A stretch of 64,000 bases of DNA. It comes from Tanypteryx hageni. Its lineage: Eukaryota > Arthropoda > Insecta > Odonata > Petaluridae. Shown piece after piece: positions 1,990-55,691 of this stretch. The stretch is taken from assembly GCA_028673005.1 (NCBI GenBank), contig CM054118.1:65281401-65345400 (forward strand). The letters run 5' to 3'. Positions within the stretch are counted from its first letter, which is position 1. Each line of letters opens with the position of its first letter. The notes below the pieces were generated by a model that did not search any database, was not told where the DNA came from, and saw only the letters and a program-made list of their open reading frames with translations. Made by a program: the position numbers and the translations under genes.

Positions 1990-4900
1990 AGCTCCCTTCT
2001 CCCTCTGTTACATATGTCATCCTCCTTTCTCTCTCCCTCCTTTCTCTCTCCCTCCTTTCTCTCTCCCTCCTTTCTCTCTCCCTCCTTTCTCTCTCCCTCT
2101 TTTCACTCTACCTCTTTTCACTCTACCTCCTTTCTCTCTCCCTCCCTTATCTCTCCCTTCCCTTTATTCTCCCCCCTCTCCCTCCCCTCCCACCCCTCTC
2201 CCTCCCCTCCCCTCCCCTCTCCCTTCCCTCTCCCTCCCCTCTCCCTCCCCTCTCCCTCCCCTCTCCCTCCCCTCTCCCTCTCCTCTCCCTCCCCTCTCCC
2301 TCCCATCTCTCCCCCTCCCCTCCCCTCTGCCCTCCCCTCTCCCTCCCCTCTCCCTCCCCTCTCCCTCCCCTCTCCCTCCCATCCCTCCCCCTCCCCTCTC
2401 CCTCCCCTCTCCCTCCACTCCCCCTCCCCCTCCCTCCCCCTCCCTCCCCCCTCCCTCCCCCCTCTCCCCCCTCTCCCTCCTCTCCCTCACCTCTCCCTCT
2501 CTTCTCTCTCCCTCCCTTCTCTCTCTCCCTCCCTTCTCTCTCCCACCCATCTCCATTCTCTCTCTCTCCCTCCTCTCTCTCTCCCTCCTCTCTCACTCCC
2601 TCCTCTCTCCCTCCCTCCTCTCTCCCTCCCTCCTCTCTCCCTCCTCTCTCCCTCCTCTCTCCCTCCTCTCTCCCTCCTCTCTCCCTCCTCTCTCCTCCCT
2701 TCTCACTCTCTTTCTTTCCACCCTCACTCTTCTTCATTTATCTTTCTCCCTCCCGACACGCCACAGCCACGCCCCGCATCACCTCCCCCTTACGTCACCG
2801 GAAAACAGATTCCCTCTAATTGCAACGGATCTGCTGCTCCGATTGCTTCCTCGCAGTGGCGGGAGTAGTGCACTCTTTCTTCCCCACCCATTCCCTCCTA
2901 CCCCACCCATTCCCTCCTCCCCCACCCATTCCCTCCTCCCCCACCCATTCCCTCCTCCCCCACCCATTCCCTCCTCCCCCACCCATTCCCTCCTCCCCCA
3001 CCCATTTCCCCCTCCACCAACCTTTTCCCCCCTCCACCAACCTTTTCCCTCTTCACCACCATTTCCCCCCTCCACAACCCTTTCCCCCTCCAACACCCTT
3101 TCCCCCCTCCAACACCCTTTCCCCCCTCCAACACCCTTTTCCCCCTCCAACACACTTTCCCCCCTCCAACACCTTTTCCCCCCTCCAACACCCTTTCCCC
3201 ACTCCAACACCGTTTCCCCACTCCAACACCGTTTCCCCCTCCAACACCCTTTCCCCCTCCAACACCCTTTCCCCCCTCCATCACCCTTTCCCCCCTCCAT
3301 CACCCTTTCCCCCCTCCAACACCCTTTCCCCCCTCCAACACACTTCCCCCCCTCCGCCACCCTTTCTCCCTCTACCAGCCTTTCCCCCATCCACCACCTT
3401 TTTCCCCTCCACCACCCTTTCTCCCTCCACCCTTTCTCCCTCCACCACCCTTTCTCCCTCCACCACCCTTTCTCCCTCCACCACCCTTTCTCCCTCCACC
3501 ACCCTTTCTCCCTCCACCACCCTTTCTCCCTCCAACACACACTCTCTCTCTCCCTCCATGTCTCTCTCGCTCCCTCAATATCTCTCTCCCTCCATGTATC
3601 TGTCTCTCTCCCTCCATGTATCTGTCTCTCTCCCTCCATGTCTCTCTCTCCCCATGTCTCTCTCTCTCCCTCCATGTCTCTCTCTCTCCCTCCATGTCTC
3701 TCTCTCCCTCCATGTCTCTCTCTCTCCCTCCATGTCTCTCTCGCTCCCTCAATATCTCTCTCCCTCCATGTCTCTGTCTCTCTCCCCCCATGTCTCTCTC
3801 TCCCTATGTCTCTCTCTCTCCCTCCATGTCTCTCTCTCCCCCTCCATGTCTCTCTCTCTCCCTCCATGTCTCTCTCTCCCTCCATCTTTGTTTTCCACCA
3901 CCTCCCCCCTCCATATCCCTCTCCCAATCTCTCTCTTCCTCCATCTCTCTCCCTCCATCTTCCTCTCCCTCTTCTCTTTCCCTCCATGTCTCTCCCTCTC
4001 CATCCATGTCTCTCTCTCCCTCTGTCTCTTTTCTCTCCCCCCCCTCCATGTCTCTTTTTCTCTCCCCCCCTCCATGTCTCTCTCTCTCCCTCCATGTCTC
4101 CCTCTCCCTCCATGTCTATCTCCCTCCATCTTTCTTTCCCACCATCTCTCTTCCTCCATCTCTTTTTCTCCATTTCTCTTCCTACATCTCTCTTCCTCCA
4201 TCTCTCTTCCTCCATCTCTCTCCCTCCATCTCTCTCCCTCCATCTCTCTCCCTCCATCTCTCTCCCTCCATCTCTCTCCCTCCATCTCTCTCCCTCCATC
4301 TCTCTCCCTCCATCTCTCTCCCTCCATCTCTCTCCCTCCATCTCTCTCCCTCCATCTCTCTTCCCTTCCATATCTCTTCCCTTCCATATCTCTTCCCTTC
4401 CATATCTTTCTTTTCCTCCATCTCTCTTTCTCCATCTCCCTCTTTCTCCGTCTCTCTCCATCTCCCTCCATCTCCCTCTTTCTCCATCTCCCTCTTTCTC
4501 CATCTCCCTTTTTCTCCTTCTCTCTTTCTCCATCTCTCACTCCCTCCATCTCTCACTCCCTCCATCTTTCTACATCCATCTCTCACTCCCTCCATCTCTC
4601 ACTCCCTCCATCTCTCACTCCCTCCATCTCTCACTCCCTCCATCTCTCACTCCCTCCATCTCTCACTCCCTCCATCTCTCACTCCCTCCATCTCTCACTC
4701 CCTCCATCTCTCACTCCCTCCATCTCTCACTCCCTCCATTTCTCTCTCTTCCTCTATCTTGCTCTCTCTCCCTCCCTCCATTTTTCTCTCCCTCTTCCCC
4801 CTTTCTTCTTCCATCTCTCTGCCCCCCCTTCTCACTCTCTCTCCTTTCTCACTCTCTCTCCCTTCTCAATCTCTCTCCCTTCTCAATCTCTCTCCCATCT

Positions 4901-5095
4901 CACTCTCTCTCCCTTCACTCTCTCTCCCTTCTCACTCTCTCTCTCCCTTCTCACTCTCTCTCCCTTCTCACTCTCCCATCCCACTGTCTCTGCCTTCTCA
5001 CTCTCTCTCCCATCCCAGTGTCTCTCCCTTCCCACTCTCTCTCCCTTCTCAATCTCTCTCTCCCTTCGCACTCTCTCTCTCCCTTTTTCCATATC
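1990..5095 (+). repeat. 3.1-kb composite of consecutive pyrimidine minisatellites
   Basis: A chain of different short-unit arrays, all pyrimidine-rich on this strand. They include TCCTTTCTCTCTCCC (about 2030-2150), CTCCCTCCC-type units (2160-2720), CATTCCCTCCTCCCCCACCC at 20 bp (2885-3005), CAACACCCTTTCCCCCCTC at about 19 bp (3070-3350), CCACCACCCTTTCTCCCT at 18 bp (3400-3535), TCCATGTCTCTCTCTCCC (3555-3890), CCATCTCTCTCCCT at 14 bp (4195-4360), CTCACTCCCTCCATCT at 16 bp (4540-4740) and CTCTCTCCCTTCTCA-type units (4835-5085). A short non-repetitive island at 2740-2880 interrupts it. Open frames of up to 776 codons on both strands here are repeat artefacts. Confidence 0.92.
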
Positions 5096-7679
5096 TCGGA
5101 ACAGATAGAAACGGGTGGATTTGAAATCGTGCCGTGGGATGACACTCCCTTTTTTTTCCCTTCACCGTGCTGAATTTCCCCGCTGGCGACGCGTAGTGTA
5201 CCTAACGTACTTCTTTCTCTTCCCCGCTTGTAACGCGAACGCCCTCTGGATCTCCCCGTTTTTCTAGTTGGACGTGCTCGGATTTGCGTCGCATCTTCGG
5301 GATAGCGCCAAGGAGGGCGGGTTTTTCATCGCGAAGTGACGGACGCCGAGAAAAACTCAATTTTTTTCAAATCGCCGGTGGAGTATGAATGTATTTGGTG
5401 GAATTTATTAAAGCGATCGCTCTGCGGAATACGTGGGGTGTTTTAATCGCCGAATAAAATCTAATGACCTCGTTTAATAAAATTTAGAAAAGCGAGAATC
5501 GCTACCTACGCGCTTTAAAAATTGTTCGCGTTTTATCGTATCTTAAAAAAATTTATACCGCGAGGGCTAATATTGATTTGCACAGTAGGTACTTCGGATC
5601 TCCTTAGGGGGACTTGGTTTGGAGCCCAGGCAGAGAAAGTCGTAATTCTGGGATATCGGGAGCCAATAAGTGCAGTTCGTGCCAGGAAGGAAATTAACTC
5701 CGGGATCTGTGTCGATGACAGGTTTTTGGCTGCCATTATAGAAATACCATGGACAAGTTAGCCGCGGGATGTTGTTCGTATTAAGAGCGAGTGGATTCCA
5801 CGACACGTCTGTGGTCTGTTTATTTAATACCGCTGGTTATACATATAGAATTCGATGCGATGATTGGGATGAGATTGGGCTGAAATAGGCCTCAGTGGAT
5901 ATCTTCCAAAATGAGAGACGTGATCGGAATTTGAGGTGTATATCTCGAACTTGGCTGCTTGTAGTCGTAAACAATGTTTCGCTCTTTCATCGAGAGAATC
6001 CGTTACCTCCTGGATTCCTTTTCTCTGAACAAAAAACGCTCTCTCGAGTTCTGTAGCGTCTTTTATTTTGGATCATTAAGCGCCGTTGCTTAATAAACGT
6101 ATAGGAAAAATATGGCGTTTAATACAAGGCATGTTTATGGAGATCGAGTTCTGCTCGAAACTATAACTTATGCGTTCCTCGGGTCATATAGATTTAATAT
6201 TCAAAATTGAAAATGACGTATAAAGTAATGTTTCATCGGATGAATTCCCTTCCATAAACTAAAAACCAAACGACACCAGAAATTGGAGAAGTCTACTGTT
6301 AAATGGCCTCAAATGTGATTAAATTAGCGACTCCGTTACCAAGTGAATTTTCGTCATTTGTCCCCATGTGGCTCATGTTCAAATAATTTTAATGTCCGAA
6401 AAACTTGGCACGGCATCCAATCCGACCCCAATTCACTCTCACATTAAGTTACGATTTATGCATCCTTCATTTAAATTGTACTCGTTAAATTGTTCGCTTC
6501 GGAGAATATCCAAAAAAGTTATTTACTAGCTACATTTCATTAACTTTAGCCTTTTGGAACCGACCGAAGGATTGGAACCGGCATATTCGTGGTTCTTTAT
6601 CGCAGGAGAGTAATGAATGCTAATGGATTAACTATGTCTTTCTGAAATAATTGGCCAAAGGAAGGAAGGGTCCAAAGGCCGGCTGATCTGCATTCCAGCC
6701 CAGGACGAGACGTTTTTTTAACCATTCGCTTTTAATTCAAATCGTCGCTATAATTGTACGTCCCTGTTTTCTTAGTAAGATCTTAAAATTCGCAGAATGT
6801 TTCATGTCATAAATAGTCTTAGGATCTAACGTTACCTTTTAGCTTACAGCGATTTCACTAAAACGTCCTCCGCCATAACACATTATTCGCGAAAACTTCG
6901 TCTTGTCGTTAAATTGTTCTCAAAGTATGATTTTGATTACCGCAAAAATATGTTCCTTCAGCAGAAAAAAATATGAGCTTTAAAAAAATCTAGTTCTTGG
7001 AATCAAGAGTTAAGCTCCAGCGAAATAAGTTTCAATAAGCATCTATAAACAAGAAGATGAATTAAAATGGAGAGGACGGGTTAGTTGGCAAGAGAAGCAC
7101 GTTTTCGTTTCTAAGAAAACGTGTTGAAAATGACAATTTTATATCAAGCAATTAAGTCCTACAGAAAACAGGTTAAATTCAGCTATAAAATTATGGGAGC
7201 AATTTCCCACTTAATTGTTCATTAACGCCTTGTGTCTAGTTTCATTCGTGTTGAAAGACTTATTAAATTACTATTTAGGAATCAAAAATAATTGCATGAT
7301 TTTAAGCGGATTTTATTGGTTTAAATTTTACGACATTGCGCTTTAGACGTAATTATTTTATCTTGCGAATAATCGGACCGTCGTCGTTTTATTTGTAGTC
7401 GATAAAAGATTTTGTGCACGATTTTCCCTGAAGGACGTGCCAAGGTTGCTCAATTAAACATCAAAAGTTTTACACGGTACCCTAATTACGTTATTAACGA
7501 ATCTCGAAAATTATTTTTGTCTCGGAAGTCCGCCCATAACTCACGAGCAATCAAAGTCGTTTTAGACGCCATCAGAGGGGACAAAACTTGACGGTAATGA
7601 AAGCCCTTAGCCCCCAATAAAAATGATTAAGCGAAACAGTAAAATTTATATTAACATCCTCGTTAATCGCGTTCAAATT
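5096..7679. other. unassigned AT-rich single-copy-like sequence
   Basis: About 2.6 kb without tandem repeats or recognisable transposon ends. Small open frames around 5522-5806 on both strands (67-79 codons) match no family I recognise and lack supporting splice or start context. Nothing else was identified. Confidence 0.4.
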
Positions 7680-13497: not shown

Positions 13498-14473
13498 TTT
13501 ACTTTCTCTATAAACGAAGTATAAAGTATTGTTTTCGTGAAAAAAAATCGAATTCGAGATTTCAGCGGAAATAAATGTTTTATGGTCCCCTAATCACGTT
13601 TTGTCTATTTTTTCGATGATGTCTGTGTGTGCGTGTGTCTGTGACCGTAATTTTGTGGGTGCTCTAACTCAAAAACTATTAATCAGATCAACGCGAAATT
13701 GTATATTTGACATATCTGTTGAAGGCGCAAGAAATGATTAGTTTTTGGCAAAAATCGATCAACCGGAAGTGGGTGCTTACTCGTGTCACATTCGTTTTTA
13801 CTTTCATTCATGAAAAAAAATCGACCGAGATTTCAACGGAAATACACGTTTTGAGGTCCCATGAACACGTTTTGACCATTTTCTTGATGAAATCTGTGTG
13901 TGTGTATGTGATAGCTTGTTTGTGGGTGCTCTAACTCAAAACCTATTGATCAGGTCAACGCGAAATTTTATATTTAACATTTTTATAAATGTCACAAGAA
14001 CTGATTAGTTTTTGGTAAAAATCGGTCAACCGGAAGTGGGTGTTTACTCTTGTCACGTATCCGTTATTTTTTAATATTTGCTTTATTGTTGGGTAAATGT
14101 AAAAATATATCGGAATTAAAGTTGTAGGAAATTTATTTTTCTACAACCTTTGTTTGAAACATTTTTCCATGTAATGCATTGTTAAGAGATATTTTTAAAA
14201 ATAAATGTTTTTGGCGCCGCCACCTCTGGCGATTAATGTTAACAATTGACGCTTAGTTCCGTCTTATCAACGCTCCTTTTTTTTTAATTGTTGGAGATTT
14301 CTGGCTACATTTAATATCAGAAGGCTACGATATGAGTCTATTTCTGTTCCTTGTAAAGTCTTTAAGTTTTTCTCGCAGTTCCTTAAAATATTCATTATCA
14401 TTTAACCTATTTGCAGTTTTTAGAAATATTACAGGTAAGTAGAAAGTCATGTGCTGGCCACATCAGATTTTTT
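13498..14473 (+). repeat. family X interspersed repeat, copy 1 (partial unit plus longer unit)
   Basis: Two 5' units lie head to tail: a partial one at about 13498-13794, then a longer one at about 13795-14473. Both contain ATTTCARCGGAAATA, an ACACGTTTTG block, a GTCTGTGTGTG block, GTGGGTGCTCTAACTCAAAA and CAACCGGAAGTGGGTG. The second continues to the family's 3' end, AGAAAGTCATG...GGCCACATCAGATTTTTT. It shares its 5' module with family Y but has a different body. It has no coding capacity, and the superfamily is unknown to me. Confidence 0.8.
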
Positions 14474-14689: not shown

Positions 14690-14775
14690 AATTCAGAGAC
14701 GGACTGGAAATGGAAACCGGATCTTCCAGTTCGCAGGCGAATGCTCCACCACCGAGCTGTCAAGGGAAATTTCCT
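14690..14775 (-). repeat. tRNA-like sequence (SINE head or tRNA pseudogene)
   Basis: On the minus strand a D-arm-like segment (GCTCGGTGGTGGAGC) is followed by an anticodon-arm-like segment whose 7-nt loop CTGCGAA would place GCG as anticodon. A degenerate T-arm region (GATCCGGTTTCCATTTCC) follows. The flanks do not form a 7-bp acceptor stem, so I do not call a functional tRNA. The segment CTGGAAGATCCGGTTT is similar to the tRNA-like halves at 18317-18527 and 51601-51716, suggesting one SINE-like family. Confidence 0.55.
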
Positions 14776-17995: not shown

Positions 17996-18718
17996 TTTAC
18001 TTTCTCCATACGTAGTATAGGGGATTGTGTTCATGAAAAAAAAATCGACCGAGATTTCAACGGAAATACACGTTTTGAGGTCCCTTGAACACGTTTTGAC
18101 CATTTTCTTGATGATATCTGTGTGTGTGTTTGTGATAGGTTGTTTGTTGGTGCTCTAGCTCAAAACCTATTAATCAGGTCAACGTGAAATTTTATATTTA
18201 ACATTTTTATAAAAGTCACAATAACTGATTAGTTTTTGGTAAAAATCGGTCAACCGGAAGTGAGTGTTTACTCTTGTCATATCTGTTATTTTGAAATATT
18301 TGTTTTAATATTTGATTTGGAACAATTTTTGAAACGAGAAAAAAGTCTGCTATGACCGGGAATTGAACCCGGGTCTTCCACTTGCCGGGCGAATATCCGC
18401 CCGGCAAGTGGAAGACCCGGGTTCAATTCCCGGTCATAGCAGACTTTTTTCTCGTTTCAAAAATTGTTCCAACTTTCACAGCTTATGCCTGTCTGCATAG
18501 GATCTTCGGATCATATCATTCCATCAATTTAATATTTGATAACTATAAAAATGTACTGGAATAAAAGTTGTAGGATATTTAATATTCTACAACCTTTGTT
18601 TGAAACATATTTCCATATAAGGCATTGTTTAAGAGATATATTTTAGCTGCCACCGCAACGCCACCTACCGACGACTATTGTTAAAAATTGACGCTTACAA
18701 TTATTAACGCACCTTTTT
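17996..18718 (+). repeat. family X repeat, copy 2 (interrupted, 3'-truncated)
   Basis: Matches the other family X copies from TTACTTTCTCCATACGTAG through the CACCTACCGACGACTATTG block, then stops where copy 3 begins head to tail. It is interrupted at 18317-18527 by an insertion carrying a long palindrome. The sister copies at about 19045 and 37665 show the uninterrupted sequence. Confidence 0.82.
18317..18527. mobile_element. retroposon-like insertion with a perfect tRNA-half palindrome
   Basis: The insertion is flanked by identical 13-bp direct repeats TTTAATATTTGAT (18304-18316 and 18528-18540). Sister family X copies carry that sequence once, so the boundaries are supported by an empty site. 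Positions 18317-18391 and 18398-18472 are perfect 75-bp inverted arms around the 6-nt centre AATATC. Each arm, read outward, resembles the 3' half of a tRNA. On the + strand there is an anticodon arm (18396-18412, loop CCGGCAA, anticodon position GGC), a 4-nt variable region, a T-arm (18417-18433, five paired bases each side of TTCAATT) and an acceptor-like strand. D-arm and 5' acceptor are absent. A 55-bp unique tail (18473-18527) follows the palindrome. A duplication of this length fits target-primed reverse transcription rather than hAT or Tc1 transposition. Confidence 0.85.
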
Positions 18719-19600
18719 ATTACTTTCTCCATATCCGTAGTATAGGGAAAAGTATTGCATTCATGGAAAAAATCGACTTCGAGATTTCAACGGAAATATA
18801 CGTTTTGAGGTCCCCTGAACACGTTTTGACCATTTTCTCGATGATGTCTGTGTGTGTGTTTGTGTGTATGTGATAGCTTTTTGTGGGTGCTCTAACTCAA
18901 AAGCTATTAATCAGGTCAACGAGAAATTTTATATTTAACATTTATATAAAAGTCAGAAGACCTGATTAGTTTTTGGTAAAAATCGGTCTACCGGAAGTGG
19001 GTGTTTACTCTTGTCAGTTATCCGTTATTTTGAAATATTCGCTTTAATATGTGATAAATGTAAAAATGTAATGGAATAAAAGTTGTAGGAAATGTAATTT
19101 TCTACAACCTTTGTTTGAAACATTTTTCCATATAATGCATTGTTTAAGAGATATCTTATATTTTAGCTGCACCGCCACGCCACCTACCGACGACTATTGT
19201 TAACAATTGCCGCTTAGTTGTCTTAGTAACGCTCCAATTTCTTTTCTTAATTTTTGGAGCTTTGTGACTATATCCAACATCAGAAGGTTTGAGTTTATTT
19301 CTGTTCCTTATAGTCTAAAATTTTCTCGCAGTTTCTTAAAATATTTCTTATTATGCAACCTATTTGGAATTTTTATAAATATTACAGATATGGAGAAAGT
19401 CATGTGTTGGCCACATCAGATTTTTTTCTTGATTGTTGGAGCTTTGTGACTATATGCAATATCAGAAGGCTATGGTTTGAGTTTATTTCTGTTCTTAGTC
19501 AATTCTAAAATTTTCTCGCAGTTTCTTAAAATATTTATTATTATGTAACCTATTTGGAATTTTTAGAAAAATACATATGGTGGCCACATCAGATTTTTTC
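18719..19600 (+). repeat. family X repeat, copy 3, plus a duplicated 3' end
   Basis: A full-length X unit (about 18719-19428) starts directly at the end of copy 2. It runs to the GGAGAAAGTCATGTGTTGGC / CCACATCAG terminus. A second copy of only the 3' portion (TTGATTGTTGGAGCTTTGTG onward) follows at about 19430-19600. The order truncated unit - full unit - extra 3' end suggests unequal exchange between tandem copies. Confidence 0.8.
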
Positions 19601-37360: not shown

Positions 37361-38042
37361 TTTTTACTTTCCCCATACACATTGGGGAAAGTATTGTATT
37401 CATGAAAAAAATCGACTTCGAGATTTCAATGGAAATACGTTTTGAGGTCCCCTGAACACGTTTTGACCATTTTCTCGATGATATCTCTGTGTGTGTGATG
37501 GCTTTGTTGTGGGTGCTCTAACTCAAAACCTATTAATCAGGTCAACGCGATATTTTATATTTAACATTTTTACAAAAGTCAGAACTGATTGGTTTTTGGT
37601 AAAAATCGTTCAACCGGAAGTGGTGTTTACTCTTGTCACATCCGTTATTTTGAGATATTTGGTTTAATATTTGATAAATGTAAAAATGTATCGGAATCAA
37701 AGTTGTAGGTAAATTAATTTTCTATAACTTTTGTTTGAAACATGTTTCCATATAATACATTGTTTAAGAGATATCTTATATTTTTGCTGCCACCACCACG
37801 CCACCTACCGATGACTATTGTTAACAACTGACGCTTAGTTACTTCTTAGTAACGCTCCTTTTTCTTTTCTTAATTGTTGGAACTTTGTGGCTGTATCCAA
37901 TTTCAGAAGGCTATGGGTTAAATTTATTTCTGTTCATTGTAAAGTCTAAAATTTTCTCGCAGTTTCTTAAAATATTTATTATTATGCAACCTAATTGGAA
38001 GTTTTAGAAATGAAAGTCATGTGGTGGCCACATCCAATTTTT
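37361..38042 (+). repeat. family X repeat, copy 4 (full-length)
   Basis: The most intact family X copy. It starts TACTTTCCCCA, with the perfectly complementary TGGGGAAAGTA 7 nt later (an 11-bp stem). It continues through ATTTCAATGGAAATACG, GGGTGCTCTAACTCAAAACC and CAACCGGAAGTGG, to GAAAGTCATGTGGTGGCC. It shows the uninterrupted sequence TTTAATATTTGATAAATG at the site where copy 2 carries the palindromic insertion. Confidence 0.85.
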
Positions 38043-40932: not shown

Positions 40933-41450
40933 TAACCGCTCCAAGAAGGCGTTACTAGCCCTGCTACTTGGTACTCTCGAAAAAAATATTACCGTTGAGC
41001 TCTAGGTTTCCCCCTTCAGTCTTTTTTAGACAGCCAGCATTAAGTTTTAATTTCGGACGCGTTTGTTTTCTGTTTTGACAGCATCCCGTTATCCTCGCGT
41101 CTCCGAGACTTCACTCCAGGCTCCTGGAGCATAAAACGCCCCGCTCTTGTAAGTCATTAGGCGAGGATATGTTTCATCCGCTCCAGAGGGCAGTCGGCTG
41201 CTTTCAGCCGCGGAGCGAGCGATATTAAAACCCGAGAGACTAAGAGAATAGAGAGGCGGCGGCTGAAACTAAAAAAGGTCGCCCATATCCTCCGCGGATT
41301 TGAAAACTACGACCTAACTCTTATTATCCTTTCTCGCAACCCTTTCCCAGGTGTTGCGTAGTGGTTGGTAATACTTTACATCTCTTTGATAACGAAAAGA
41401 ACCGACGAAGCACCATTCAGCCCTACACTCCTCCTGCCTGCTCCTCCGTA
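40933..41450. other. unassigned sequence
   Basis: About 520 bp. Nothing recognised before the CT array. Confidence 0.4.
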
Positions 41451-41738
41451 AGCAGGATTTCTCGACCTCTTTTTCCCTCATCTTTTTTCTCCTCTTCCTC
41501 CTCCTCTTCCTCCTCCTCTTCCTCCTCCTCTTCCTCCTCCTCTTCCTCCTCTTCCTCCTCCTCTTCCTCCTCCTCTTCCTCCTCCTCTTCCTCCTCCTCT
41601 TCCTCCTCCTCTTCCTCCTCCTCTTCCTCCTCCTCTTCCTCCTCCTCTTCCTCCTCCTCTTCCTCCTCCTCTTCCTCCTCCTCTTCCTCCTCCTCTTCCT
41701 CCTCCTCTTCCTCCTCCTCTTCCTCCTCTCCTTCCTCC

Positions 41739-41770
<32 letters not shown>

Positions 41771-42275
41771 CTCCTCTTCCTCCTCCTCTTCCTCCTCCTC
41801 TCCTCCTCCTCTTCCTCCTCCTCTTCCTCCCTCCTCTTCCTCCCTCGTCTTCCTCCCTTCTCTACTTCCCTCTTCTTCCCTCCTCTTCTTCTCTCCTCTT
41901 CTTCCCTCCTCTTCTTCCCTCTTCTCCCTCTCTCTTTTTCCCTCCTCTCCCTCCCTCGTCTTCCCTCCTCTCCCTCCCTCGTCTTCCCTCCTCTCCCTCC
42001 CTCGTCTTCCCTCCGCTCCCTCCCTCTTCTTCCTTCCTCTCCCTTCCTCTTCTTTCCCCCTCTCCCTCCCTCTTCTTCCCTCTTCTTCCCTCCTCTCCCT
42101 CCGTCTTCTTCCCTCTTCTTCCCTCTTCTTCCCTCCTCTCCCTCCCTCTTCTTCCCTCCTCTCCCTCTCTCTTCTTCCCTCTTCTTCCTCTCTCTTCTTC
42201 CCTCTTCTTCCTCTCTCTTCTTCCCTCTTCTTTCCTCCTCTCCCCTTCTCTCTCTTCTCTCTCTCTCTCTTATCT

Positions 42276-42332
<57 letters not shown>

Positions 42333-42808
42333 CTCTCCCCTCTCTCTCTCCTCTCTCTCTCCTCTCTCTCTCCTCTCTCTCCTCTCTCTCTCTCTCTCTC
42401 CTCTCCCCTCTCTCTCTCCTCTCTCTCTCCTCTCTCTCTCCTCTCTCTCTCTCCTCTCTCCTCTCTCTCTCCTCTCTCTCTCCTCTCTCTCTCTCTCCTC
42501 TCTCTCTCTCCTCTCTCTCTCTCTCCTCTCTCTCTCCTCTCTCTCTCCTCTCTCTCCTCTCTCTCTCTCCTCTCTCTCTCTCCTCTCTCTCTCTCCTCTC
42601 TCTCTCTCCTCTCTCTCTCCTCTCTCTCTCTCCTCTCTCTCTCTCCTCTCTCTCTCCTCTCTCTCTCTTCTCTCTCTCTCTCCTCTCTCTTTCCACTTCC
42701 TCCCTCCAATTCTTCCCTCTTCTCTCTCCCTCCACTTCCTCCTCTTCCCCTCTCCTCTTCTTCCCTCCACTTCCTCCACTACTTCTCTCCTCCCTCCCTC
42801 CACTTCTT
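41451..42808 (+). repeat. CT array: (TCCTCCTCTTCC)n then CTTCCCTCC and (CT)n blocks
   Basis: A 12-bp unit TCCTCCTCTTCC spans about 41490-41830. CTCCCTCCCTCTTCTTCC-type units follow to about 42240. (CT)n interrupted by CTCC covers 42240-42690, then CCTCCACTTCCTCC-like units. It produces polySer/Pro/Leu frames on one strand and Glu/Arg frames on the other (up to 542 codons). All are artefacts. Confidence 0.94.
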
Positions 42809-42870
42809 AGGTGGAAGATGGGACTTTTTAGCCTCAATTTCGCCCCAAATAAAGACCACATCAATCAATC
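42809..42870 (+). mobile_element. 62-bp, extremely 5'-truncated LINE tail with 18-bp duplication
   Basis: AGGTGGAAGATGGGACTTTT then CTCAATTTCGCCCCAAATAA, AGACCACA and TCAATCAATC: the LINE 3' end only. The 18-bp direct repeats TCCCTCCCTCCACTTCTT at 42791-42808 and 42874-42891 flank it, which is diagnostic of target-primed reverse transcription into the CT array. Confidence 0.85.
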
Positions 42871-43985
42871 CTCTCCCTCCCTCCACTTCTTCCATCCTCT
42901 GCCTACCTCCACTTCCTCCCTCTTCTTTCTCCCCTCCACTATCCATTTCTCCCTCCCAGCGTCCAATCTGCGTCTTCATAGCAATTTAATTCGCTGGGCG
43001 TGCGACGGCAAATTCCGCAGAAAAGCGAATCTATGGAGCGTCAACGGGGCATGTAACAGATGGATCTGGGGGTGTGTGGAGGGTAAGAAGAGAAGAGAAG
43101 AGGTGACCGGGATGGGGCGGAGAGTTAAAGGGGAGGAAGAATGTCCCACGCAATGCGCCGAGCGTATAGCGAGAGCCGCCTCCTCCAGACCTTGTCCTTA
43201 TGTCCCATTTCGTGCCTTCGCGCGAGATTGCGCGCGGAACAAAAGCAATTCCGCTAATGCCATTTCGTCCCCACCTCCCCCCTCTCCCATTGCCACTCCT
43301 CCCACCCCTTCCCTCCCTCTCTGAAACACTTATTTCTCCCCCCCCTGAGGAATCCTACCTCCCTCCGCTCCCCTTCACTTGTTTTCTTCCCATTCTAACG
43401 CCTCCCCGCCACTTCTTTGTCTCCAAAAACCACCCACTACTATTCTTCCCCCCGCACTCTTGTCTTCCGCGTACGCTCAGTTCCAATTATTCTCCGCCTT
43501 CTTCAAAGTCTTGAGTCGCAATGCATTCATTGGTCTCTGGACGCCCTTTCTCGGCCCCCGGTATCATCCTGCGCTATTTAGGGAAACGTCTCCTTTTTCG
43601 CTGGAGACGGCTCTTCAGTCAGCGTCTCGGATTCATGCGAAAGTTCCGAAAAATTTCCCAGGAGACCGAATTTATGTCGGAAAATAATTTAAAGGGAGTG
43701 GGGCAGTTAATCTACTCCGACAGCTGTTGAAATAATAAAGGGAAAAGTGAGTCGTGGAAAGAATTTGAGGTCGGGTTCATTGTGAAAGTGACTCGGGGTG
43801 CATCTTCCTTAGCTTAGCGAGTCTTCGAAGTGGATTCCGATTACAAGAAGATGTGAGAATGTTCGCACAACTTGCAGAAGCGTGAATGAATGCAATGTTG
43901 GCAATCGGCGCCAGCGAAAGGAAGATTAATAGGTTCGACTCCTGACGTGAGGCGTAATTGAGATAGCTGAGAAACGTTAGGTGGC
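42871..43985. other. end of CT array, then unassigned sequence
   Basis: CT-rich to about 42960 and again at 43260-43480. The remainder is mixed, with no recognised gene. Confidence 0.4.
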
Positions 43986-47609: not shown

Positions 47610-47880
47610 GCCTACTATCCATAATGGAAATAGGCTTATAGTTTTGTCGTGCCTGTCTGTCCATCTCCCCCTATTAACTTTTGAACTAATAGACCGATTT
47701 TCATGAAACTTGGTGGAAATCTCTTTCTGTGTGGGCCTAGATCTTGAGGATAGTTTTTGTTGCGAAGGTTGAAGTCCCGGGTTCGTTTCCAGGAACTATC
47801 CTTCCCATTTGATTTATCGTACATGGGAAATCTGAAATCCATCGTGCAGGGTAATTTTCTGTTGCACATTAAAATATCTT
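47610..47880 (+). repeat. possible third repeat family (Z) resembling the X/Y layout
   Basis: CCTACTATCCATAATGGAAATAGG-type near-palindrome at about 47611-47634. Next come TGCCTGTCTGTCCATC, AACTTTTGAACTAATAGACC and GATTTTCATGAAACTTGGTG. The order (hairpin, CTGTCTG block, 'act on accession' style AACT-rich block) parallels families X and Y, although sequence identity is low. GGATAGTT...AACTATCC at about 47748-47803 flanks a B-box-like GGGTTCGTTTCC. Only one copy is in the window, so repeat status is inferred. Confidence 0.35.
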
Positions 47881-50800: not shown

Positions 50801-51600
50801 CACATATTTATAGGAATTGAAACGTCTCTCCAACTTTGTTGTCTCTTTTTCTATGAAATTGAGAAGGAAGAATATAAGCCCTTGATGATTTAATCTCTTA
50901 AATTGGAGACAATTTATTTTAAACTCCTCTGCATATAAATGTGATTCGGTATTGAATATAGAATGAAACAAGAGAGGTAGGTGAGGATTCTTACCAGTTG
51001 GAGCACGTGAAAGGAAAAGCGTCCACTCCCCGGGGAAATTTTATTTTGTTCAAAATAAGCTACTTAGAATTTCCACTGAACGTGTTTGTTCTAATTTTCA
51101 GGACTGGTAGTATGAAGTTCCTCGATATGGGAAAGATATTTTTATTTGGTGATTGACGTGTTTCATCGCTTGATTTTGCAAAGGTCGCGGGTTCTAATCC
51201 TTCCTAGATCATAGTAGTATGTTCTTTTCATTGAAAATCTATTATAATACCTGTAGTAGGGAAAACCATTTTATGAGTAATGCATTATTATTATTTCAAG
51301 TGTTAGATGATTTTGCAATGGGGAAACAAAAATTATTTCCGTGTAACCTCTTTGTAAATTCTAGATAATATTACTTCATCGTCAAACTGTCTTTCATTTC
51401 TTGCGAACGCCCATTTTCCGTGAGTTGTTCCATCAACGGCATTCCTCTTATCTGAGTTCTCTCTATCAAAACACATGTCCTATTTGTCGCTTATCCATAC
51501 AGCATTATACTCCCATTTGTCCTCTCCAAGAGCGCACGATTTTTCTTACTGCTTCCATTTACCCCGAACATGGCGCAGTTTTATGATTTGCTATTTCGTG
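47881..51600. other. unassigned sequence
   Basis: About 3.7 kb. 48196-48675 (-) holds a 159-codon frame of ordinary composition with no domain I recognise, overlapped by a 144-codon frame on the + strand. About one such frame is expected by chance. CT-rich patches lie at 49815-49890 and 50400-50460. GCGGGTTCTAATCC at about 51189 is an isolated B-box-like motif. Confidence 0.35.
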
Positions 51601-51716
51601 AGAGAAATTTAGTAATCAGGAGAGAAATTCTGCAATTGCCGGGAATCGAACCAGGATCTTCCGCCTGTTGGGCGTATACGGCAGGTGGAAGATCCGGGTT
51701 CAATCTAAATTTCTTC
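51601..51716. repeat. imperfect tRNA-half foldback, related to the 18.3-kb palindrome
   Basis: On the minus strand the left arm reads GGCGGAAGATCCTGG then TTCGATTCCCGG. The right arm on the plus strand reads GCAGGTGGAAGATCCGGGTT then CAATC. Both contain B-box-like sequence, arranged head to head around TTGGGCGTATACGGC. Outer pieces GAGAAATTTAG and CTAAATTTCTTC are also complementary. The right arm lacks about 25 bp of the left arm. Same layout as 18317-18527 but older or imperfect. No clear target duplication was found. Confidence 0.6.
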
Positions 51717-51900
51717 CATATTCTTGTTGCATAAGGAATTCACAATCCACACTTCCTATCGTAATATTTCGTGGATTAAACTGTTTTCGGTCGTAATTGC
51801 TGGACGGTTATTGATGCGCTCTCCTGCAGTTGCGTGACTGGCAGTTGTTTAGCCTTTCGAGTCACGTCTGCTTCTTCCACTTCATACAGTGATATAGTCT

Positions 51901-52774: not shown

Positions 52775-53035
52775 AGTAACATATAATTCGAGAACAATCC
52801 CTTAAAAAATACTTCGTCTCAAGTATCCCCAATAGCCACGACTAGGTTATAAAAAGCAGATGCGCATTTCTGCTTTCTTGTATTAGAGTCTACATATTTT
52901 TGGTGAATTACCACTGAAGATGGCTGCTTTGTAGCCGAAATGCGCATCTGTTTTTTATAATCTTGTAGTGGCTATTGGAGATATCTAAGACAAATATTCT
53001 TTAAATGCTTGTTCTTGAATCTTTTCAGCCATAAG
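52775..53035. mobile_element. foldback element, possibly Penelope-like, with ~95-bp inverted arms
   Basis: Imperfect inverted arms, about 52775-52870 and 52937-53035. Paired blocks include CCCAATAGCCAC with GTGGCTATTGG and GCAGATGCGCATTTC with GAAATGCGCATCTG. A hammerhead-like core lies between the arms, spanning the start of the right arm. Penelope-like retroelements are known to carry hammerhead motifs within terminal repeats, which is why I suggest that origin. No reverse transcriptase or endonuclease sequence is present, so the assignment is tentative. Confidence 0.6.
52914..52950 (+). ncRNA. hammerhead-ribozyme-like motif (degenerate)
   Basis: CTGAAGA (52914-52920) matches the CUGANGA core. 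Stem II follows, GGCTGC (52922-52927) with GTAGCC (52931-52936): six pairs with one G-U, loop TTT. GAAA (52937-52940) and the self-complementary TGCGCA with TC (52947-52948) at the expected cleavage position come next. Three departures from an active ribozyme are visible: an extra U at 52921 between the core and stem II, a zero-loop stem III that would need dimerisation, and a weak stem I (ACCA against TGTT, one mismatch). Self-cleavage is therefore uncertain. Confidence 0.4.
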
Positions 53036-53379
53036 ACAAGCTTGATAATTCCATGCTGCAGTAACATATCATAATAAAACATTCCAAAATCAAATCGTAT
53101 ATTTGATTTCTTATTACGTTTATAATGTTTCGAAATTCATTAATGCTGCAGTCAATAACTGTCGCCTCTTTCAAAGCAAACATTCAGAAATATGTTTAGA
53201 GCTTCATAATTATGCTTCCTCGAGTCATCATGAAGCGTTTTCCTAGATGGCACAGCCCTTAGATATTTCTTTGTCTATCAAAAGAACACGTTTCCGTTCG
53301 CGTTGGATGCAAAAAAAACCGAATGAAACATGCAGCTGTCCTATCTTTCCTCTTTCATCGCTTCCTCTTCCCTCATACA
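53036..53379. other. unassigned sequence
   Basis: About 340 bp between the foldback and a CT array. Nothing recognised. Confidence 0.4.
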
Positions 53380-54155
53380 CTCCTCGCATCCTTCATCCTT
53401 TTTCTCCCTCCTCCCTCTCCTATCTCTCCTTCACTCTCTCAACCCCCTTCCCTCTCTCTCTCTCCTCTTCTCTCTCTCTCTCCCCCCTTCTCACTCTCTC
53501 TCTCCCCTTCTCTCTCTCTCTCCCCTTCACTCTCTCTCTCCCCTTCACTCTCTCTCCCCTTCACTCTCTCTCCTCCCTTCACTCTCTCTCCTCCCTTCAC
53601 TCTCTCTCCTCCCTTCACTCTCTCTCCCCCCTTCACTCTCTCTCCCACCTTCACTCTCTCTCCCACCTTCACTCTCTCCCCTTCACTCTCTCTCCCACCT
53701 TCACTCTCTCTCCCCTTCACTCTCTCTCTCCCCTTCACTCTCTCTCCCCTTCACTCTCTCTCTCTCCCCTTCACTCTCTCTCTCCCCCCTTCACTCTCTC
53801 TCTCTCCCCTTCTCTCTCTCTCCCCTTCACTCTCTCTCTCCCCTTCACTCTCCCCTTCACTCTCTCTCCCCTTCACTCTCTCTCCTCCCTTCACTCTCTC
53901 TCCCCCCTTCACTCTCTCTCCCACCTTCACTCTCTCTCCCACCTTCACTCTCTCTCCCACCTTCACTCTCTCCCCTTCACTCTCTCTCCCACCTTCACTC
54001 TCTCTCCCACCTTCACTCTCTCTCCCCTTCACTCTCTCTCTCCCCTTCACTCTCTCTCCCCTTCACTCTCTCTCCCCTTCACTCTCTCTCCCACCTTCAC
54101 TCTCTCCCCTTCACTCTCTCTCTCTCCCCCCTTCACTCTCTCCCCTTCACTCTCT

Positions 54156-54209
54156 CTTATGGTCTAAATTTCGCCCGAATAAAGACGATTATCTATCTAT
54201 CTATCTCTC
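54156..54209 (+). mobile_element. short LINE 3' tail inside the CT array, copy 1
   Basis: TTATGGTCTAAATTTCGCCC then GAATAAAGACGATTATC and three TCTA units. Matches the 3' end of the LINE at 15656-16177. Confidence 0.82.
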
Positions 54210-54380
54210 TCTCCCCCATTCACTCTCTCTCCCACCTTCACTCTCTCTCCCCTTCACTCTCTCTCTCCCCTTCACTCTCTCTCCCCTTCACTCTCTCTCC
54301 CCTTCACTCTCTCTCCCACCTTCACTCTCTCCCCTTCACTCTCTCTCTCTCCCCCCTTCACTCTCTCCCCTTCACTCTCT

Positions 54381-54434
54381 CTTATGGTCTAAATTTCGCC
54401 CGAATAAAGACGATTATCTATCTATCTATCTCTC
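54381..54434 (+). mobile_element. short LINE 3' tail inside the CT array, copy 2
   Basis: Identical to the copy 225 bp upstream, including the tail length and the flanking CT units. It arose by duplication of the array block, not by a second retroposition. Confidence 0.82.
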
Positions 54435-54600
54435 TCTCCCCCATTCACTCTCTCTCCCACCTTCACTCTCTCTCCCACCTTCACTCTCTCTCCCACCTTC
54501 ACTCTCTCTCCCCTTCACTCTATCTCCCCTTCACTCTATCTCCCCTTCACTCTCTCTCTCCCCTTCACTCTTTCTCTCCCCTTCACTCCCGCACTGCGCT

Positions 54601-55115
54601 TTTCTTCATCTGTATTGCTCTTTCTTCTCCCCACTTTCTGACCTTTCTTTCTCTCCCTCCCTTTTCTACTGCCTTATTTATCTCCCTTTACCTTTGCTCC
54701 CGCCATTCATTTTGCTCACATACCCCACCTATTTGATCCCTCTATTTTTCCATTCTCTCTTTACTCTGTATTCCATTCCATTTCTTCTCACTCTCCCTTT
54801 CTTCTTCCTCTCCCTTTCTTCTTCCTCTCCATTTCTTCTTCCTCTCCCTTTCTTCTTCCTCTCCCTTTCTTCTTCCTCTCCCTTTCTTCCTCTCCCTTTC
54901 TTCTTCCTCTCCCTTTCTTCTTCCTCTCCCTTTCTTCTTCATCTCCCTTCCTTCTTCATCTCCCTTTCTTCTTCATCTCCCTATCTTCTTCCTCTCCCTT
55001 TCTTCTTCCTCTCCATTTCTTCTTCCTCTCCATTTCTTCTTCCTCTCCATTTCTCTCTCCTCCCTTTCTCTACCTTTCTCTCTTTCCCTTTCTCTCTCTC
55101 CTTTCCTTTTCTTTC
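54601..55115 (+). repeat. CT array (CTCTCCCTTTCTTCTTC)n
   Basis: About 17-bp units CTCTCCCTTTCTTCTTC at 54785-55060, with a less regular pyrimidine lead-in and tail. Confidence 0.9.
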
Positions 55116-55691
55116 CTCTATCATCTTCCTTCCCCGGTTTCCATCTCCTCGCTGTCTGGCCAAGGGAAAGAGAAGGTAGGAAGGGAGAGAGAGGAGCCGT
55201 AGCCTTCGCCGCACTACTATTCCTCCGCCTTATATCGATCTGCCGCCTTGCGTGGAAGCGGCAGGGTGGATGGTGAGGGGATGAGGGGGAAAAGAGAAGG
55301 GGGAGTATGAGGGGGAGAGAAAGAGAGAGAGTACTAGCGACGGCGGGAATAAGAGCGAGCGTGAGGGAGATAGAGAAGGGAGAGAGGCGTGCGGCGTGGC
55401 CTCCGGGGACCAGTTGCAGCCCCCGTTTGGATTATTGAGCAGAACATCGTGCCGAGGAGGAAGTAATGCGGCCTTTTAAAACATTGCGAGCCCGCACGCG
55501 ATACTTGCGAGCGTCCGCGCGCACGCCTCGCGAAGAATGATCCGCCTTCTTCCTCAAGACTCCATCCGTCCATCGTTCTTTTTCGGCCATTCCTTTTGAA
55601 CCCGCACGTTTTAAAGAGCGAGGACGAGAGAGAGAGAAAGGGACGTGAGATGGAGAGAGTGAGAGGGTCGATTTTAAAGGAGCAGTTAAAG
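55116..55691. other. unassigned, partly GA-rich and CpG-rich sequence
   Basis: GA-rich around 55270-55380, then CpG-richer. No exon recognised. AGTTAAAG at 55684-55691 is the left duplication of the next element. Confidence 0.4.

Follow-up and report, generated by a model that had tools for sequence, protein, structure and literature searches.

A family of short tRNA-bearing retroelements in Tanypteryx hageni that forms head-to-head palindromes and probably integrates in the manner of Penelope elements

The window analyzed here is a stretch of 64,000 nt from the genome of the dragonfly Tanypteryx hageni (G000:C7:65281401-65345400 in the own-genome search, which covered 1.68 Gb in 1022 contigs). 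It harbors an insertion of 211 bp (18317-18527) that is flanked on both sides by 13-bp target duplications with the sequence TTTAATATTTGAT (18304-18316 and 18528-18540). An uninterrupted target site is present in three related host repeats of the window, in the stretches 18930-19160, 37540-37780 and 13970-14200; empty sites had been proposed near 19045 and 37665, and the third repeat is additional. The sequences 18317-18391 and 18398-18472 are complementary at 75/75 positions around the 6-nt centre AATATC; counted through this centre, the palindrome has arms of 78 nt with 1 mismatch. Both arms contain a tRNA anticodon arm, a 4-nt variable loop and a T arm, without a D arm or 5' acceptor, and consist, in this order, of the tRNA 3' part, GAC, TTTTTT and 22 more bases. 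The original prediction, which was made from the window alone, is confirmed at the coordinates it gave. The features are given below, with unit positions referring to the 308-bp reference unit U (L013:230-537):

18304..18316, no strand: left copy of the target duplication, same as 18528-18540 and single in the three related empty sites
18317..18391, minus strand: inverted arm, tail-less antisense copy of unit positions ~174-253, its outer end flush with the target duplication
18348..18397, minus strand: tRNA 3' part (about nt 23-73) of the inverted arm; covariance model R1 matches at 18350-18397 (-)
18392..18397, no strand: centre AATATC, where two cDNA ends would overlap in an AT-rich stretch (tRNA nt 22-28)
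18392..18441, plus strand: tRNA 3' part of the main arm, with anticodon arm, 4-nt variable loop, T arm and 3' acceptor strand
18398..18472, plus strand: main arm, sense copy of the stretch found in the inverted arm; 18391-18527 is identical to unit positions 172-308
18419-18430, plus strand: B-box-like GGGTTCAATTCC in the tRNA part of the main arm
18445..18450, plus strand: TTTTTT right behind the tRNA, a possible Pol III terminator judging by its sequence
18473..18527, plus strand: 55-nt tail, present at one end only (right, outside the palindrome)
18482-18488 / 18495-18501, plus strand: predicted 7-bp stem-loop in the 55-nt tail
18528..18540, no strand: right copy of the target duplication, matching 18304-18316

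A chance origin of the palindrome is excluded, since its self-complementarity score is 302 and none of 1000 first-order Markov shuffles exceeds 52. Perfect palindromes are a well-known type of artefact, which would arise here from one arm folding back during assembly or amplification. Yet the end of the arm coincides exactly with the edge of the target duplication, and a further 54 head-to-head insertions were dissected in the genome, most of them with the same plan and dozens with their own target site duplications (TSDs). For these reasons an assembly fold is unlikely, and an artefact of either kind is given next to no credence. The palindrome is instead a young insertion of a short tRNA-carrying retroelement, in line with the recent formation that had been proposed. 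Its left junction shows no microhomology. ARAGORN makes zero tRNA calls on the window and calls a full tRNA in the relatives described below.

Several other classes of element were considered and rejected. A MITE or another element with terminal inverted repeats does not account for the 55 nt that lie outside the repeat yet inside the duplication, nor for a duplication length that varies among copies. Matches to the miRNA families MIR821 and mir-2057 stay below the gathering score on both strands. A foldback of DNA after insertion would not be expected to produce an arm that stops at the duplication, and a cDNA snapback, weighed from the window alone, was likewise rejected.

Further tRNA-like sequences are present in the window. 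A covariance model built from six tRNA halves (threshold E < 0.001) yields six matches at four places, all of which were used in its building: the insertion at 18304-18540, 51633-51711 (also two-armed), 14698-14745 and 47752-47799. No measure of covariation among the six halves beats shuffles, and the pairing percentage does beat slid controls. The second two-armed place, which the original prediction had not listed, is older, and both its duplication and the homology of its tail are only suggestive:

51592-51600 / 51765-51773: possible 9-bp duplication TATTTCGTG
51601..51764, plus strand: older two-armed relative
about 51603-51672: its inverted arm, followed by a palindromic centre, CGTATACG
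about 51673-51714: its main arm with a 32-nt deletion, then a tail of about 50 nt

The sequence at 47752-47799 is tRNA-like without a D arm and displays a possible 8-bp acceptor (GGATAGTT/AACTATCC) and perhaps an 8-bp duplication (GGAAATCT), and 14698-14761 (-) appears as an old tRNA-derived copy with a D arm. Elsewhere in the window, 52824-52983 forms an inverted repeat (arms of 51 nt, spacer of 58 nt), and long polypyrimidine tandem-like stretches (2000-5200, 41300-43000 and 53200-55200) give rise to huge low-complexity ORFs. Pfam searches with ten ORFs of the window returned nothing informative, and the same applies to phage and plasmid searches and to exact patterns sought in viral and GTDB contigs.

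The parent of the insertion is a repeat unit of 308 bp. In the own-genome search with the window insertion, the best 40 of 746 candidates were scored, and main arm plus tail (18391-18527) turned out to be identical to U172-308 at 137/137 positions. Complete units hold an entire tRNA cloverleaf (anticodon GGC in ARAGORN; 59.5 bits for the Rfam tRNA model in the best one), and the flanks of this tRNA form an inverted repeat of the unit itself (U132-156 against U215-241). A 17-nt body motif, GACTTTTTTCTCGTTTC, occurs at 3216 + 3490 = 6706 places in the 1.68-Gb genome, the reversed control at 0 and 2. The units are often arranged in tandem at 306-309 bp; the period is 308 bp in L013, and 26/28 same-strand spacings on contig C1 fall within 306-309. 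Units within one insertion diverge by a median of 0.44% (41 pairs, including 15 from the L013 array), and young insertions diverge from each other by 2.4% (1606 pairs). tRNA-derived SINEs are defined by a complete tRNA-like head in which A- and B-box-like sequences occur, by their short length and by the lack of an ORF. The 308-bp unit shares all these traits, and its head, recognized as tRNA by ARAGORN and Rfam, would provide a putative internal Pol III promoter. It differs from such SINEs by the T6 directly behind the tRNA, by its tandem units and by its two-armed insertions. Near 15.02 Mb of C1 (G000:C1:15017181-15023949), 9 minus-strand motif copies are followed by at least 13 plus-strand copies at 309-bp spacing, forming a very long two-armed array, and host DNA near the L013 array includes a near-perfect palindrome (L078:1001-1100).

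Recurrence of the palindromic form, for which a search of the whole genome had been proposed, is borne out. A genome pattern search for the inverted and then the direct body motif 70-100 nt apart retrieved 65 places, and the reversed-pattern control retrieved 0. The set of dissected insertions, 55 in total, comprises 50 of these 65 places plus L001, L004, L005, L007 and L008; very short arms are missed in the pattern set because the pattern needs the body in both arms. It includes L036, scored 308 at both ends, and the nested array L029, and leaves out L035, which duplicates L006. In L029 (1267-1814), an 82-bp part of the unit is itself repeated in tandem on both sides of the head-to-head centre.

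The outer ends of these insertions are clustered. The main arm ends at U306-308 in 51/55 copies and the inverted arm at U248-259 in 45/55, with peaks at 251 (13), 252 (7) and 253 (11); this favoured internal end is denoted X in the following. Of the 10/55 inverted arms that end beyond 248-259, some represent truncated alignments in older copies (L032, L054), and in L056 both ends are unusual. Exact target duplications measuring 10 bp or more (10-16 bp, median 12.5) are present in 44/55 copies, and 11/55 have none of 10 bp; duplication and X end occur together in 35/55. The duplication overlaps the start of the inverted arm in 31/44 (by 1-6 nt in 30), which is possible microhomology, bearing in mind that the TSD was defined as the longest match, so that about a quarter of the copies would overlap by 1 nt by chance. 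An alignment of the tail ends of 32 insertions shows T or C as the base preceding the duplication in 30, part of which may be placement ambiguity because the tail ends in TTT, and the duplication itself starts with A (25), A (28) and T (21) in the same 32. One site of a dispersed repeat (TTAAAC/AATGCATTATATGG) is occupied by two insertions with different centres, L083 and L090; its sequence resembles the reverse complement of 18607-18639 in the window.

The centres vary: 44 distinct pairs of inner ends are found among the 55 copies. The suggestion had been a SINE family with a hairpin as its unit, moved in one piece, each copy inheriting its palindrome from a palindromic source; in its favour, start and tail are the same in the window copy and L002, and their centres nearly so. 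Nevertheless, it is the outer ends that cluster and not the centres, and complete units carry the full tRNA, so that this explanation is hardly conceivable and the idea of a single mobilised unit is not supported. The expected copies with target duplications of their own do exist, in 44/55 as stated, but mostly with centres that differ. With so many centre pairs and with complete units that contain the whole tRNA, each insertion appears to build its palindrome afresh.

Two samples inform on how common the two-armed form is. Among the first 100 motif places, a minus-then-plus order was seen in 12/60 clusters and plus-then-minus in 0; owing to exact motif matching, 12/60 is a lower bound. A second sample was drawn from 32 places by matching main arm plus tail only, giving 31 insertion loci, six of them extended. 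A head-to-head junction is present in 27/31 of these loci (L028 by eye and by its duplication), and the remaining 4/31 (L013, L022, L026 and L089) show no clear inverted arm. L089 may retain 5 nt of it, L026 has an 11-bp duplication with filler in place of the arm, and L022 has no target duplication. Both ends were examined in 21/31 loci, 17 of which display the X end and a TSD of 8-16 bp; L085 ends at U49. The value of 27/31 may be 26/30, because L011 and L012 share flank and junction and are possibly one event copied, and it describes the fraction among young copies and not among all, because the query was palindromic and only the best-scoring candidates were taken.

The inner ends are informative with respect to the mechanism. 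An arm is longer than one unit in 19/55 copies, and in 15 of these the inverted arm still ends at U251-253. A clean single-unit set of n = 31 is left when the 19 multi-unit copies, 4 copies whose junction has a long natural inverted repeat, and 1 aberrant copy are set aside; it supersedes a comparison of inner arms across all 55 copies (28/17/10) that included multi-unit arms. In this set, the inverted arm reaches further in the 5' direction in 14 copies, the main arm in 7, and both are equal within 2 nt in 10. This distribution argues that the arms stop independently, and because the longer arm may be either one, the best fit is a head-to-head fusion of two cDNAs that were primed separately.

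The junctions themselves show an overlap of at least 1 nt in 43/55 copies, of 1-3 nt in 24 and of 25-26 nt in 9/55, the latter using the unit's inverted repeat U132-156 / U215-241. In one class of copies (L001, L002, L031, L059 and L072), which includes that of the window, the arms are joined within the tRNA's AT-rich stretch, with the junctions GAATATCC in the window copy, GGATATCC in L002 and L072, GGATATATCC in L031 and GGATATATATCC in L059.

A palindrome might also be created by self-priming foldback of one cDNA (or of antisense RNA). Such foldback accounts for near-perfect palindromes and was proposed for Penelope elements (Arkhipova and colleagues, PMC3846280), where the Discussion favors self-priming on an antisense template as the origin of inverted copy and tail and leaves the matter unsettled. 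Here, the loop should read main-arm sense only, but single-unit copies have an antisense loop in 14 and a sense loop in 7, and a copy templated on the tail-less arm could not bear the tail. Moreover, the arms of L019 differ by 2.3-2.8% and those of L084 by 2.0%, so that the two cDNAs sometimes derive from different templates. Foldback as a general route is not tenable on the 14/7/10 counts, and overall we regard it as very unlikely. The earlier proposal of an origin by retroposition stands as far as the target duplications and formation during reverse transcription are concerned; a simple foldback of one cDNA does not account for the 14 single-unit copies with a 5'-longer inverted arm.

Two cDNAs are also expected from twin priming, the process proposed for 5'-inverted L1, in which the reverse transcriptase of a LINE would mobilise a SINE of tRNA origin and internal priming would be provided by the second target strand. 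The head-to-head arms, the target duplications, the start at the tail end and the microhomology agree with such a process, as do the inverted 5' part, the microhomology dependence and the frequency of 5'-inverted L1 (30.9% of L1 insertions; PMC2912911) and the duplications described at internal inversion breakpoints of twin-primed L1 (PMC12350158). On the other hand, two-armed copies are the majority of the sample (27/31) and their arms duplicate the same region, sometimes over several units, unlike L1 or Alu, the latter being 5'-inverted in 1/5554 (PMC2912911). The position of the second start is likewise at odds with this comparison. In L1-type twin priming the second, internal priming site is variable, whereas in the 308-bp-unit family it clusters at one site (U248-259 in 45/55). 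LINE-driven twin priming is therefore considered improbable.

A candidate source of enzymes resides in the same genome. A GIY-YIG profile gives 146 matches among the best 150 scored of 6908 candidates, and the corresponding elements, which also occur in tandem (~2723 bp) and as head-to-head pairs, have open frames reaching 851 aa. One open frame (at least 792 aa, read as it stands) encodes RVT_1 (3.2e-12) followed by GIY-YIG (3.3e-6), an order that is the domain pair of Penelope elements; solved structures for this protein were not found. Two head-to-head copies of the resident element have unequal outer ends, one exceeding the other by ~30 or 43 nt, and their insertions lie between direct repeats of 12 bp that partly overlap the tail-less arm. 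The resident RT/GIY-YIG element thus shares the plan of the small 308-bp-unit element, which consists of tandem direct units, an inverted, usually shorter 5'-side copy flush with the duplication, and a tail (~55 nt) on one side only. Because its anatomy is the same as that of the resident element, it is well supported that the small element works like a Penelope-type element; it may be mobilised by the resident Penelope-like element (PLE). A unit of 308 bp cannot encode RT plus GIY-YIG. Comparison of the unit termini with sampled Penelope-like ends gives a local score reached by 210/2000 shuffles, which is not significant, and in ten further stretches downstream of GIY-YIG the sole good match is to the unit interior (106-170). 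The TTCCAA at X, a short hexamer, also occurs at the corresponding point of several resident GIY-YIG elements. The family is best filed as a non-autonomous, tRNA-bearing, Penelope-type element, with termini shared with a partner unproven.

Similar architectures are known from PLEs. Penelope inserts are described as direct pLTRs next to an inverted pLTR of lesser length, with only one of the inverted ends bearing a tail (31 bp), and with target duplications of 8-10 bp (9 bp in the described insert) (PMC3846280), and a curation guide notes inverted pLTRs and short 3' extensions of Penelope-like elements (PMC8969392). The 308-bp-unit family resembles EN+ PLEs such as Pen2a_Av of Adineta vaga (PMC3846280) in its pLTR-like tandem units, the shorter inverted 5'-side copy, the one-sided tail, the junction overlaps or palindromes and the short duplications (8-10 bp there, 10-16 bp here). 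It differs from them by a 308-bp unit that carries a tRNA, by the lack of an RT/GIY-YIG ORF and proven shared termini, and by the hammerhead, a motif reported in many PLEs (PMC7761336), of which no core was found. Metazoan non-LTR retrozymes also consist of short non-coding tandem units (about 150-300 bp), and PLEs were suggested as their mobilisers (PMC7761336). A hammerhead retrozyme was rejected, since the core search and Rfam on L013, L026 and L005 gave no hammerhead match, Rfam reporting only tRNA and one sub-threshold miRNA match; the tRNA in the unit is a further difference. The titles retrieved from the open-access literature mention neither this family nor a tRNA-bearing Penelope-type element, which is not proof of absence.

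Taken together, the insertion in the window probably arose by integration of a short retroelement that bears a tRNA, has no coding capacity and inserts in the Penelope manner. The order of steps that we infer, with Penelope-type enzymes acting in trans, would be as follows. A staggered cut at the target would expose two DNA ends, one of which would prime an antisense cDNA at the 3' end of the element (unit 308, ...CATCAATTT). The other would prime a second antisense cDNA at the favoured internal site X (unit ~253, ...GTTCCAA), ~55 nt upstream, often via a few nt of sequence match. As a guess from two short strings, a resemblance of X (GTTCCAA) to the true 3' end (ATTCCATCAA) might explain the second start. 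Both cDNAs would extend toward the tRNA, sometimes across several 308-nt units, stop at unrelated places and be joined head to head, mostly by short overlaps, yielding an inverted repeat with a tail at a single end and a target duplication of 10-16 bp. In the window copy, the cDNA stops would lie ~2 nt apart in the AATATCC stretch of the tRNA and overlap by ATAT, resulting in an almost perfect palindrome. A more specific version is tentative and rather doubtful: the template might be an RNA of a single 308-nt unit with its tRNA, in circular or multimeric form, on which a Penelope-type enzyme would start cDNA synthesis at each side of the staggered cut. Repeated passage around this template would give the multi-unit arms, and two favoured start sites 55 nt apart would set both ends.

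If this more specific version holds true, two-sided target-primed synthesis would be the normal route of the 308-bp-unit family, and the one-sided 'tail' of Penelope elements would merely be the spacing of two cDNA starts. The family has thousands of motif copies, many of them young, and in each the start, stop and joining points of two cDNAs are preserved. This makes the origin of the Penelope inverted copy and one-sided tail testable by counting, and the family argues for two separate cDNAs over self-priming. Likewise, near-perfect palindromes around tRNA halves can arise without a hairpin source gene. Apparent Penelope-like tandem arrays are found on C9 (G000:C9:159685040-159696187 and C9:5358120-5597393), where GIY-YIG matches are repeated at ~2723 bp and ~2764 bp.
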